Part shown: positions 44,225 to 48,308 of the stretch, in pieces
Layout of the letters: each line of letters starts with the position of its first letter
Numbering within the stretch: position 1 is the stretch's first letter
Source of the DNA: Halothiobacillus sp.
Lineage (GTDB): Bacteria; Pseudomonadota; Gammaproteobacteria; Halothiobacillales; Halothiobacillaceae
Assembly: GCA_020061705.1 (NCBI GenBank)
Contig: JAGUXT010000045.1
Coordinates: 1-60,900, forward strand
DNA length: 60,900 nt
Direction of reading: 5' to 3'
Position numbers and translations under genes: made by a program
Notes under the pieces: generated by a model
Told to the model about the DNA's origin: nothing
The model's database searches: none
The model's input: only the letters and a program-made list of their open reading frames with translations

Positions 44225-44252
44225 AGAAAAAGCCTCGCACACAGGCGAGGCT
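44225..44252 (-). terminator. Terminator of the cytochrome operon
   Basis: Minus strand AAGCCTCGC, loop CTGTGT, GCGAGGCTT followed by TTTC, about 20 bases after the cytochrome c stop. Confidence 0.9.
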
Positions 44253-44274
44253 TGCACCGGAAAAACATTAAAAC

Positions 44275-44577
44275 TTACTTAAACTGCGCGAAATACGCCG
44301 CGATATTGGCCATATCGGCATCATTCAAGGCTTTGGCCATAGGCACCATAATCGGGTCTAGGCGCGTGCCATCCCGATAGCCTTTGAGTGCTGCAACCAA
44401 GTACTCGGCATGATTACCCGCCAGGGTTGGGTAGGTTTTAATGGCTGGGTGCCCATCTTTGCCGTGGCAGGCAAAACACACCGCCGCCTTTTTTTCGCCC
44501 GCTGCAATATCCGCAGCCATGCTTTGAGCGAACGGGATTGCGCCTAGCGCAAGCAACAACACAACTTTTTTCATCAT
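44275..44577 (-). CDS. Small periplasmic class I cytochrome c
   Basis: A 100-aa exported monohaem cytochrome: signal peptide MKKVVLLLALGAIPFAQSMA, haem motif CFACH near residue 34 and a Met ligand in IMVPMAKAL; the C-terminus NIAAYFAQFK is the usual helix of cytochrome c4/c553-type domains. It is the last gene of the operon with the two CydA-like subunits and likely donates electrons to or accepts them from that complex. Confidence 0.88.
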   Translation of the reverse strand: MMKKVVLLLALGAIPFAQSMAADIAAGEKKAAVCFACHGKDGHPAIKTYPTLAGNHAEYLVAALKGYRDGTRLDPIMVPMAKALNDADMANIAAYFAQFK

Positions 44578-44645
44578 GAATTCCTGTATTGAAATGAAAT
44601 ACATCCGGCGGCGTATCAACGTCAGCCGCCGAATTAAATTAAGGT

Positions 44646-45881
44646 TTAGCCGTTATTACTCAGCCAGATCCAGATACCAACGGCCATAAAGCCCGCCACC
44701 CACAGCGCTGTAGCCGCCACCGAGCCGACCCCCAGCCGGGATACCGTGGCATCCGCCTGATACACGCCCGACACTCGCCCGGCCTTGTACACCAAGGTGA
44801 TAATGAAACCGCCCATCAGCCCGCCCACACCGACAATGGTGAGCAAGAACAGCACAAACGAGGGCACATCCCACAACACCTTGTAGTCCAGCACGCTGTA
44901 GTTGAACGGTGCCATATACGCCATGCGCAGCACTTCGCGAAAAATCGCCACCAAGCCCGCCATGCCGATACTCAAGGTCAGCAGCTTGTAGCCTTGACCT
45001 TGCGTATCACTGCCACGCGCCACGGCGAAGGCCGCCACCAGCACACCGAGATAAATCAACAACAACCAAGACATCGGGTGCGTCCAGATTTTCAATGCAG
45101 CAGGTACATCCAGCATCCACCCCAAGAGCAACACCACCTGCGCCACTGCGCCAACAAAGGCAATTTGACTGCCCAGTTTGCGTGCAAAGGCGAGATACGC
45201 CGGACCGCGGTCGGCACGCACTTTGAAATAATCGCCATACGCGATTAAAAACGCGCCGAACACCGTGACACTCATGGCCATGAAAAAGCCCCAGCGCACC
45301 AATTCATAGGCATGGACACTGTTGCCGGACATGTCCACATGACCATCCGGGGTGTACCACTCGACCCATTTTTCCGGATGCAGGCCTTGGTAGGCCAAAA
45401 CGTGCATGATGAAGCCATCAAGAAAAAACATTGCCAAACCAAAAACGCCCAGCCAGAAAATCCAGCCTGGCGCATGATCGCCGTGGTTTTTCAGATAAAA
45501 CGTAAACCAGGCGAGATAGCCGATGGTCAGGGTGAAAATAAAGCCGATCACCCATGAAGCCGACAACAGGTTCGAGGCATACCACTGCGGATCGTAGATG
45601 GTCTGGGTAAACAAAAGCGGCGCGACCCCCAGCACCACCAGCAAAGACACCCCCACTTTAGCGACTTTGGTCATCGCCTCGGAGAGCTTCTGCCAATGCG
45701 GGTCATGGCGCTTAGTGAAGGCATACAGCCCCATCAAGGCTGCACCCAGACTGATATTCACAAACAAAATATGCGGAACCCAAGTAAACACCATCAACAC
45801 CTGAAAAATCAGCGGATGCGAAGGAATCCCCGTCGGGTCTTGAAGGGTATGCAGCATGGCTGCGGTGCTTGCAACATCCAT
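44646..45881 (-). CDS. CydA-like membrane subunit (second subunit)
   Basis: A 411-aa protein with about nine membrane helices. The first helix VFTWVPHILFVNISLGAALM resembles the CydA helix that holds a haem ligand His; further helices include HGDHAPGWIFWLGVFGLAMF and VPSFVLFLLTIVGVGGLMGG. There is no canonical Q-loop. It overlaps the upstream cytochrome-fused subunit by one base, and the two seem to be paralogous halves of one complex. Its reaction is not determinable from the sequence. Confidence 0.7.
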   Translation of the reverse strand: MDVASTAAMLHTLQDPTGIPSHPLIFQVLMVFTWVPHILFVNISLGAALMGLYAFTKRHDPHWQKLSEAMTKVAKVGVSLLVVLGVAPLLFTQTIYDPQWYASNLLSASWVIGFIFTLTIGYLAWFTFYLKNHGDHAPGWIFWLGVFGLAMFFLDGFIMHVLAYQGLHPEKWVEWYTPDGHVDMSGNSVHAYELVRWGFFMAMSVTVFGAFLIAYGDYFKVRADRGPAYLAFARKLGSQIAFVGAVAQVVLLLGWMLDVPAALKIWTHPMSWLLLIYLGVLVAAFAVARGSDTQGQGYKLLTLSIGMAGLVAIFREVLRMAYMAPFNYSVLDYKVLWDVPSFVLFLLTIVGVGGLMGGFIITLVYKAGRVSGVYQADATVSRLGVGSVAATALWVAGFMAVGIWIWLSNNG

Positions 45882-47287
45882 TAGTTCACTCCTTTAGCAG
45901 ATGATGAATGCGTCGCCTGACTCACCGCCACAGCGGGCGGCGTATAGCCCGAAAGCGAAGCGATATACAGCGCCATGGCCGCACGCTCGTCTTCCGGCAG
46001 AGGCATTCGGGGCATGTAAGGAATCTTGCCGTGATACAGCGCACCATCCAGATAAGCCTGAATCATCTTCGGCTCATCCGAATGCCCAAACAGCGGCGGC
46101 AAAGGACGCAGTGCGCCATCCGACTCCACACTATGGCAATTCGCGCACATGATTTTGGTCAACACCTCGCCCGCACGCAGCTGATTTTCCGGCGTAATTT
46201 TGCGCAATTCCTCAGGCACAAAATAATTTGTCGCCAACACGCCTTTCGCCTCAATCAGCGGCATATCCGACACCACCCCCTTGCCCGGCACATCACGCGA
46301 GAAAAACTGATTCGAATAAATATACTGCCCCGCCACATAAGGCTTGCGCATCGACTCACGCGAACGCTCCTCCGGCCACAAGCCAAACAGACCAATCGCC
46401 AGCGTCATCACCACAGCCACACCCTGACGCAGGTACATGGGCTTCCATGCGGTAAAGATGAAATACACCAAAGTCGCCAACAGCAACGCACCCAGCGTAC
46501 TGCCGTATTTCGGCATCATCTGCGTTTCCATAATCAAACGCGCATTTTCCGGCAAGGTTGCGGTGTACCACATGAACATCACCAGCATCAGAAACATGCC
46601 CGCCAGCCCCATTTTGGAGAGGAAGCGCGTAATCTCGATGCGGGTTTCACGGTCTTTCAGCGTCGCGGCAATAATTCCGCCCACCGCCCCCGCCACCGCA
46701 AACATAAAGGCCGTGCGTATGCCCAAATGCGCAAAATAATTCAGGTTAAATGCCGCATCAAAAGTGGAACCGGTGCTATACCACTGGTCATTCCCCGGCC
46801 ACATCATGAAACTCAAAATCGGCACAATCAGAATCATCGTCGCCCACGAAGCAAGAGCGAACGACCACGCAAGTTTCAGATAGGTCTTGTTATCAATCTT
46901 GCCGATTAGATACACCATGGCATACACCCCGATGACCTCGACAAAGAAAAACACCCACTCCGAAGCCCACAGCCAGACAAAATTATGAATCAGGCCACTA
47001 ATCCCGCGTGGACTCGCCACCGTGACCGAATACCAAATTCCAGGCCCAGTAATCGAACCGATGATGTAAGAAAACACCAACAGAAACATGCCGTATTTTT
47101 TCAAATACAGCATGATTTCCGGTTTATTTTCACTGACCGACTTTTGCGCCAGCAAGGCAAACAGCCAAGCCGCGCCGACGGATGTATGCGAAGCCAGCAC
47201 GTGAATGGTGCCGATAATTCCCATCACCCACGCCGTGCCTATTCCCGGCACATACCACTGCGGGTACAGCCCAAGCATTTCAAGCAT
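45881..47287 (-). CDS. CydA-like membrane subunit fused to a cytochrome c domain
   Basis: A 468-aa protein. About eight helices include GTIHVLASHTSVGAAWLFAL (CydA-like first haem region), WLWASEWVFFFVEVIGVYAM and LNYFAHLGIRTAFMFAVAGA; after a periplasmic stretch the C-terminal domain has one haem motif CANCH near residue 388 with Met ligand candidates in IPYMPRMPLP. It belongs to the cytochrome bd-like superfamily rather than to quinol oxidase CydA proper. The start has AGGAGGAG upstream. It is first in the operon. Confidence 0.75.
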   Translation of the reverse strand: MLEMLGLYPQWYVPGIGTAWVMGIIGTIHVLASHTSVGAAWLFALLAQKSVSENKPEIMLYLKKYGMFLLVFSYIIGSITGPGIWYSVTVASPRGISGLIHNFVWLWASEWVFFFVEVIGVYAMVYLIGKIDNKTYLKLAWSFALASWATMILIVPILSFMMWPGNDQWYSTGSTFDAAFNLNYFAHLGIRTAFMFAVAGAVGGIIAATLKDRETRIEITRFLSKMGLAGMFLMLVMFMWYTATLPENARLIMETQMMPKYGSTLGALLLATLVYFIFTAWKPMYLRQGVAVVMTLAIGLFGLWPEERSRESMRKPYVAGQYIYSNQFFSRDVPGKGVVSDMPLIEAKGVLATNYFVPEELRKITPENQLRAGEVLTKIMCANCHSVESDGALRPLPPLFGHSDEPKMIQAYLDGALYHGKIPYMPRMPLPEDERAAMALYIASLSGYTPPAVAVSQATHSSSAKGVN

Positions 47288-47536: not shown

Positions 47537-47562
47537 AAAAAAGCCCCGCATTTCACGGGGCT
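47537..47562 (-). terminator. Terminator after the Tll0287-like gene
   Basis: Minus strand AGCCCCG, loop, CGGGGCT followed by TTTTTT. It separates the Tll0287-like gene from the CydA-like operon. The 269-bp gap 47288-47595 shows otherwise only AT-rich DNA that must hold the operon promoter. Confidence 0.88.
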
Positions 47563-47595
47563 CAGACAGTCAATCAAATACTTAAGTCGCAAGCC

Positions 47596-48156
47596 CTATG
47601 GCAAAGCAGCACTCACCGCAAACGCCCCGCGAATATCGCCCAGCTTAAAGCCGACCGCCTTATCATTCGGATACAGCGCCTGGATTTTCGCCTGCACCTC
47701 TGGGTTAATCGCCGTACCGTGGCAGGTCAGGCAGACATCTTCCGTGCCAATCGCCTTCATCATGCGCAGCGTCGGCGTGCCATTGACCTCGACCACTTCT
47801 TTCCACACCAAGTCGGCCACCGGCTTGCCTGCGGCCTTATCCTTCTCAAAGCCCTCAAGTACCACCATTTCCCATTCGCTTGGCGGCGTGGCACGCGGCT
47901 TGAGCGACGTGCGGTGAATATCCACGCCGTATTTTGCACTCATCTGCTGCGCAATTTTCGGCGCTTCGGTATGACAGACCGGAATCGCGTTCATCACCCC
48001 ACCTTCTTTCATGGCCGCCTGCAAAGTCGCTTTAAGCGTCATGCCAAACTCCTTCATCGCCTCCTGCGATTTTTGTACCGCAGCCTGTTCTGGCGCATCG
48101 GCGTACACAGCCAGCGGGGTGAGTAAAGTCAAAACAGCAATCAGGCCAAGCTTCAT
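47596..48156 (-). CDS. Tll0287-like exported haem protein
   Basis: A 186-aa protein with a signal peptide (MKLGLIAVLTLL, cleavage near VYA-DA) and a Tll0287-like/DUF3365 domain. The single haem motif CLTCH is in the C-terminal part; AIPVCHTEAPKIAQQMSAKY supplies the other conserved Cys-His pair. These proteins are small periplasmic sensors or redox proteins of uncertain role. The chosen ATG has GAGG upstream; the frame has other ATGs five codons earlier. Confidence 0.82.
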   Translation of the reverse strand: MKLGLIAVLTLLTPLAVYADAPEQAAVQKSQEAMKEFGMTLKATLQAAMKEGGVMNAIPVCHTEAPKIAQQMSAKYGVDIHRTSLKPRATPPSEWEMVVLEGFEKDKAAGKPVADLVWKEVVEVNGTPTLRMMKAIGTEDVCLTCHGTAINPEVQAKIQALYPNDKAVGFKLGDIRGAFAVSAALP

Positions 48157-48308
48157 GATCATCATCCTCATGGGTATTTATTCAACAGAGGATAGCGCAA
48201 TCCGTATAAGCCGCTGTTCTGATGTCATGAACCCGCCCGCAGATTTTCCCGCTCGACGCTATCCCGCATATACTTGCCGCCACTTTGTGACTCAACAACT
48301 CATTATCT

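Follow-up and report, generated by a model that had tools for sequence, protein, structure and literature searches.

What kind of enzyme is encoded by a gene cluster in which two CydA-like membrane proteins, one of them fused to a haem c domain, are followed by a small cytochrome c? The cluster lies in the window (the whole stretch of DNA analysed, 60,900 nucleotides from Halothiobacillus sp.), which is contig C16 of a nearly complete 2.27 Mb genome. The bd superfamily is divided into quinol-oxidising enzymes (qOR) and two types that lack a quinol site, OR-C and OR-N (Murali et al. 2021, as summarized in PMC10839748, PMC13189123 and PMC8509429). According to a 2021 review (PMC8509429), every bd-type cytochrome that has been characterised biochemically oxidises quinol, and a bd enzyme with a non-quinol donor is wanted. 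Here, we argue that the cluster (A–B–c) probably specifies an OR-C-type cytochrome c:O2 oxidoreductase that contains no copper, making it a compact three-gene candidate for a non-quinol bd enzyme that carries its own cytochrome c.

The sequence and its open reading frames agree with the original prediction on the extent of the cluster (44275-47287) and on its three genes, the third of which is a small cytochrome c (Table 1). Subunit A starts with an ATG at 47287, preceded by AGGAGG, and ends at 45881, where B starts behind its own AAGGAG to end at 44646; both genes are thus provided with a good Shine–Dalgarno sequence. Terminator-like hairpins flank both sides of the cluster, delimiting the operon to A–B–c. 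A gene for a Tll0287-like haem protein (47596-48171) is found upstream of A on the same strand, with its own terminator. It was rejected as a fourth operon member, given the intervening terminator-like hairpin and its presence nearby in only one other fetched genome. In locus L025, a Tll0287-like homologue is placed after the cytochrome c gene instead.

Table 1. Features of the A–B–c operon and its flanks, in window coordinates.
Feature	Position	Strand	Remarks
Subunit A	45881..47287	-	468 aa; 8 predicted TM helices; haem c domain at the C-terminus
Subunit B	44646..45881	-	411 aa; 10 predicted TM helices
Small periplasmic mono-haem cytochrome c	44275..44577	-	100 aa; PF00034 1.1e-08
A/B stop/start overlap TAATG	45879..45883	-	Seen in the sequence
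Terminator-like hairpin 3′ of cytochrome c gene	44230..44253	-	Predicted
Terminator-like hairpin 3′ of Tll0287-like gene	47541..47563	-	Predicted; parts that gene from A
A His29 codon, helix I	47201..47203	-	Equivalent to CydA haem ligand H19/H21; 67/67
A Glu110 to Glu117, helix III	46937..46960	-	Equivalent to CydA E99, E107; 67/67, 66/67
A E307..R310-E311..R314 motif	46346..46369	-	Equivalent to CydA ExGRQPW; all four 67/67
A CANCH (381-385), covalent haem c site	46133..46147	-	Invariant; PF13442 4.1e-07, PF00034
A Met425	46013..46015	-	Likely axial ligand of fused haem c; 67/67
B His37, helix I	45771..45773	-	Equivalent to CydA H19; invariant 58/58
B Met159-His160	45402..45407	-	In all 32 B of the window's clade; in none outside it
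B R315-E316-V-L-R319	44925..44939	-	Probable equivalent of CydA E445 motif

This three-gene operon is real and conserved. Identity to the window's subunits in close relatives is 79-90% for A and 69-84% for B. The A–B order is kept in nearly all loci showing both genes, and the A–B–c order in alpha-, beta- and gammaproteobacteria. A mono-haem cytochrome c also directly follows B in Thiomonas, Paraburkholderia, Variovorax, Alcanivorax and Methylosinus. The free cytochrome c of the window scores similarly against FccA and against half of a di-haem cytochrome c.

Subunit A taken singly is barely recognizable as a CydA protein, reaching the CydA family PF01654 with an E-value of 0.22, under the Pfam cut-off. 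Single-sequence searches of the PDB with A and B returned no matches, so that profiles were needed. A profile of 54 relatives matches Geobacillus CydA (5doq_A, E 3.6e-10) in an alignment covering both the initial helices and the final motif, and 48 of the 54 homologues match PF01654 individually (best 1.5e-21). The AlphaFold2 model of A (mean pLDDT 89.2) superimposes on CydA 7ose_A over 313 residues at 2.9 Å (VIA-align Z 28.9, for a predicted model). Against ten bd entries, Z ranges from 26 to 29 and the top chain is always CydA.

A comparison of 67 A proteins drawn from many phyla showed no substitution at H29, E110, R191, E307, R310, E311, R314, C381, C384, H385 or M425, while E117 is kept in all but one. 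E110 and E117 are spaced by 7 residues, as in Geobacillus CydA, and E311 falls at the position of the haem b595 ligand (E445/E378) when its motif is aligned to the Geobacillus AEVGRQPW. By these alignments, A retains equivalents of CydA H19, E99, E107 and E445, the residues of the predicted high-spin di-haem oxygen site. The quinol side of CydA is missing: in the model, helices 6 and 7 are linked by about 4 residues and no Q-loop is present, and in the alignments the quinol-binding Q/K/E set and F-R-x-M have no counterpart, M161 being the sole conserved core Met. The haem b558 ligands H186 and M393 are likewise not conserved in the alignments; the site of the His is variable (I, L, V and others) and is followed by the invariant R191. 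Together, these gains and losses suggest that A has kept the catalytic di-haem site, lost the quinol-oxidising haem and its site, and gained a haem c. As the number of helices is even, both termini of A should lie on one side of the membrane, which the haem c domain predicts to be the periplasmic side, as in CydA; the charges of the loops agree with this.

Subunit B was expected not to be a CydB protein, and the comparisons bear this out. B has no relevant family match when searched singly, but profile comparison by hhalign aligns it to A at 98% (E 1.2e-14, 277 columns) and to CydA at 86%, as opposed to 3% for CydB. Its AlphaFold2 model (mean pLDDT 93.2) aligns to CydA 7ose_A over 346 residues at 4.0 Å (VIA-align Z 28.7, again for a predicted model), and in all ten bd entries the top chain is CydA. 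We therefore rejected B as a CydB homologue; on profile and model evidence, B is a CydA paralogue with a CydA fold. Among 58 B sequences, 32 of which form the window's clade (Proteobacteria, Campylobacterota and Thermus), no equivalent of CydA E99/E107 is present. R315 and R319 are found wherever the region is present (57/57), and E316 in 32 of the 32 clade members, with mostly D, H or Y elsewhere. The pattern E316-x-x-R319-x-x-Y corresponds to E311-x-x-R314-x-x-Y in A and to E-x-x-R-x-x-W in CydA. However, hhalign favours a register in which the B and A motifs are shifted by roughly one helix turn, which makes the equivalence of E316 to E445 only probable. Judged by these residues, B may be a haem-binding subunit that lacks a second catalytic site.

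The main structural claims of the original prediction thus stand: both membrane subunits are CydA-type by fold, profile and residue evidence, each has a conserved His in its first helix, one carries a C-terminal haem c domain with an invariant Met, and a complex without Q-loop and haem b558 ligands in A and with a CydA paralogue as B is not a standard bd oxidase. Its suggestion of a cytochrome c-linked oxidase or other bd-like reductase agrees with the fold, profile and residue evidence and can be refined: only A has the full high-spin ligand set, B having H37 and, in the clade, E316.

A–B pairs are found in Gamma-, Beta- and Alphaproteobacteria, Campylobacterota, Thermus, Acidobacteriota, Ignavibacteria, Bacteroidetes, Planctomycetota, Thermodesulfobacteria, Nitrospirota and others. 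The phylogeny proposed as a check separates canonical CydA from the A–B family (SH-aLRT support 100), and within the latter a proteobacterial branch consists of the window's group and the group of a sister paralogue (SH-aLRT support 93 and 99). The Halothiobacillus genome itself encodes both copies, the window copy on C16 and the sister on C24 (A2–B2, L074:5892-8534, ~52% identical to the window copy), besides a canonical CydAB (C28), a cbb3 oxidase (C61) and another haem-copper oxidase (C10). The sister A was matched in 8 of 274 genomes drawn from the class.

The sister paralogue is where a testable function comes into view. In 12 fetched loci from four families, A2–B2 adjoins FccB (PF21706, PF09242) of flavocytochrome c sulfide dehydrogenase (FCSD), mostly together with FccA and a di-haem cytochrome c where the contig reaches that far. 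Eight of these loci have the order fccA-fccB-A2-B2-dihaem c (L078, L114, L115, L116, L117, L118, L119 and L120, the contig of L118 stopping after A2), and four have A2-B2-fccA-fccB-dihaem c (L121, L146, L147 and L150, with fccA uncalled in L146). Locus L148 shows the di-haem cytochrome c only, and in the Halothiobacillus locus (L074) and L076 the contig stops within or just past fccA. The fcc linkage is essentially that of one clade, in which gene order has changed, and does not represent many independent events. It belongs to the sister paralogue and not to the window copy; FccB is encoded in no locus of the window's group within flanks of up to 6 kb.

The same genome also connects fccB to a different oxidase. 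The end of C10 and the start of C22 share an identical 99 bases of the fccB 3′ end, followed on C10 (L142:3154-6405) by CoxB, CoxA and a di-haem cytochrome c and on C22 (L143:1-888) by a di-haem cytochrome c; probably, two fccB copies broke the assembly at these contig ends. The fccB 3′ end next to CoxB-CoxA-dihaem c indicates that the fcc module also pairs with a haem-copper oxidase, and a module that occurs with either oxidase type favours A2–B2 as a cytochrome c oxidase. The sister copy thereby suggests a defined chain that could be rebuilt, running from sulfide via FccAB and cytochrome c to the oxidase.

For A–B–c, we propose that electrons would enter at the haem c fused to A, delivered by a cytochrome c of the periplasm (most likely the one encoded in the operon), and would then move on to the high-spin di-haem site in A (putative ligands H29, E110 and E311; E117 would belong to the proton path). 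O2 would be reduced to water at this site, and quinol would not be the donor. B would replace CydB structurally and may itself bind one or two haems (H37, E316). Should protons be taken up from the cytoplasmic side, turnover would be electrogenic. The bd oxidases resist sulfide (PMC4815019), and a likely use of A–B–c would be respiration where haem-copper oxidases fail, for example when sulfide is present, given that the sister copy shares an operon with a sulfide dehydrogenase. A more specific version holds that the complex is a bd-type heterodimer with haem in both subunits (the pair and haem c in A, and haem at H37 and E316 in B), acting as a sulfide-tolerant, copper-free oxidase coupled directly to periplasmic sulfide oxidation and bypassing the quinone pool; we put this forward tentatively and consider it rather doubtful as a whole.

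Canonical bd enzymes also act on NO and peroxide, and A–B–c could accordingly be a cytochrome c-fed bd-like reductase of NO, peroxide or a similar substrate, or an oxygen-scavenging defence enzyme, instead of an energy-conserving oxidase. The occurrence of members in anaerobic lineages and beside multihaem cytochromes, and a MauG-type peroxidase gene near the Alcanivorax copy, would fit such a role, and in strict anaerobes that carry members, such as Thermodesulfobacterium, oxygen defence or another acceptor is possible. We nevertheless regard this as unlikely, since no nor, nir or nos genes were seen among the scanned neighbours (a selected, non-exhaustive set) and the paralogue takes, next to sulfide dehydrogenase, the position that a haem-copper oxidase occupies in the same genome.

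The remaining alternatives concern the electron donor and the direction of electron flow. The archaeal two-paralogue CydAA′ is said to be a quinol oxidase, so a divergent quinol oxidase with a newly evolved quinol site and an accessory haem c is conceivable; with the Q-loop, the quinol-loop K and E and the haem b558 ligands all absent, and a cytochrome c in the operon, it is very improbable. A module resembling alternative complex III, or one for reverse electron transfer (quinone to cytochrome c), has been proposed for the bd-like proteins of Nitrospina (PMC3578206), and membrane subunits of alternative complex III are indeed weaker fold neighbours of A and B (VIA Z 17-19). This we find hardly credible for A–B–c, as both subunits match CydA with Z scores some 10 units above these and electron transfer alone does not need the full high-spin di-haem ligand set of A.

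The cytochrome c:O2 oxidoreductase we favour has a place among known bd-type systems. A fused cytochrome c reportedly marks the OR-C family. With OR-C, A–B–c shares the CydA-like core, the di-haem site, the lack of a quinol site and the likely cytochrome c donor, and nothing contradictory was found in a comparison based on secondary descriptions; we therefore place it in OR-C by these traits and by secondary citations. The original prediction held that no function could be named with confidence. This is still apt for the enzymology, as none is reported for OR-C in reviews of the superfamily (PMC10839748, PMC13189123, PMC8509429), but the family itself already had a name and a description based on sequences. 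Excerpts of two genome papers on Guyparkeria, of the same bacterial family, mention FCSD and haem-copper oxidases and no A–B–c oxidase.

The canonical CydAB of the same genome (C28) resembles A–B in its CydA fold and in the H19, E99, E107 and E445 equivalents of A, whereas A–B lacks the Q-loop, the haem b558 ligands and a CydB, and has haem c fused to A. The archaeal CydAA′ (Caldivirga) likewise replaces CydA and CydB with two CydA paralogues, but without a fused haem c. OR-N proteins (CydAA′ of Nitrospira and Nitrospina) share the pairing of two CydA paralogues, the lack of a quinol site and a predicted cytochrome c donor (PMC10839748, PMC12342949). The Nitrospina bd-like proteins, which are without quinol residues, are described as having 14 helices (PMC3578206), in contrast to the 8 helices and fused haem c of A. 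Two loci (L112, L113) encode long bd-like, OR-N-looking proteins without haem c, which the A profile does not reach at E 1e-3; in L112, a separate CxxCH protein adjoins on the same strand. Finally, cbb3 and other haem-copper cytochrome c oxidases would catalyse the same proposed cytochrome c:O2 reaction and are partners of fccB-type genes, but their fold is unrelated to A–B and they contain copper.

Several relatives show further variations in architecture and neighbourhood. Two tandem A genes and one B are found in Ignavibacteria (L038:1-8413, L039), downstream of an apparent cbb3 operon. In Thermodesulfovibrio and Thermodesulfobacterium (L040:4923-8406, L065, L066), A is ~885 aa long with an extra domain and B precedes A; in L040 (Thermodesulfovibrio), an ODP/flavodiiron-type protein is encoded next. 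Multihaem cytochrome genes lie immediately 5′ of A in L051 and L067, and the peroxidase gene of Alcanivorax is similarly a neighbour of its copy. Behind the Methylosinus copy come a kinase and a response regulator of the ActR/PrrA/RegA kind, which scores E 7.6e-46 against NF033791 but stays below the cut-off of that model; a similar regulator and kinase pair comes after the Agrobacterium copy. Like the ODP/flavodiiron-type protein, these regulators are neighbours with a link to oxygen and fit the proposed oxidase. On a plasmid of Methylosinus sp. C49 (NZ_AP022335.1, L080), the A-B-c-kinase-RegA-like set is only a few genes away from a methanobactin operon for copper scavenging and from feoB, such that the putative copper-free oxidase adjoins copper-starvation genes.
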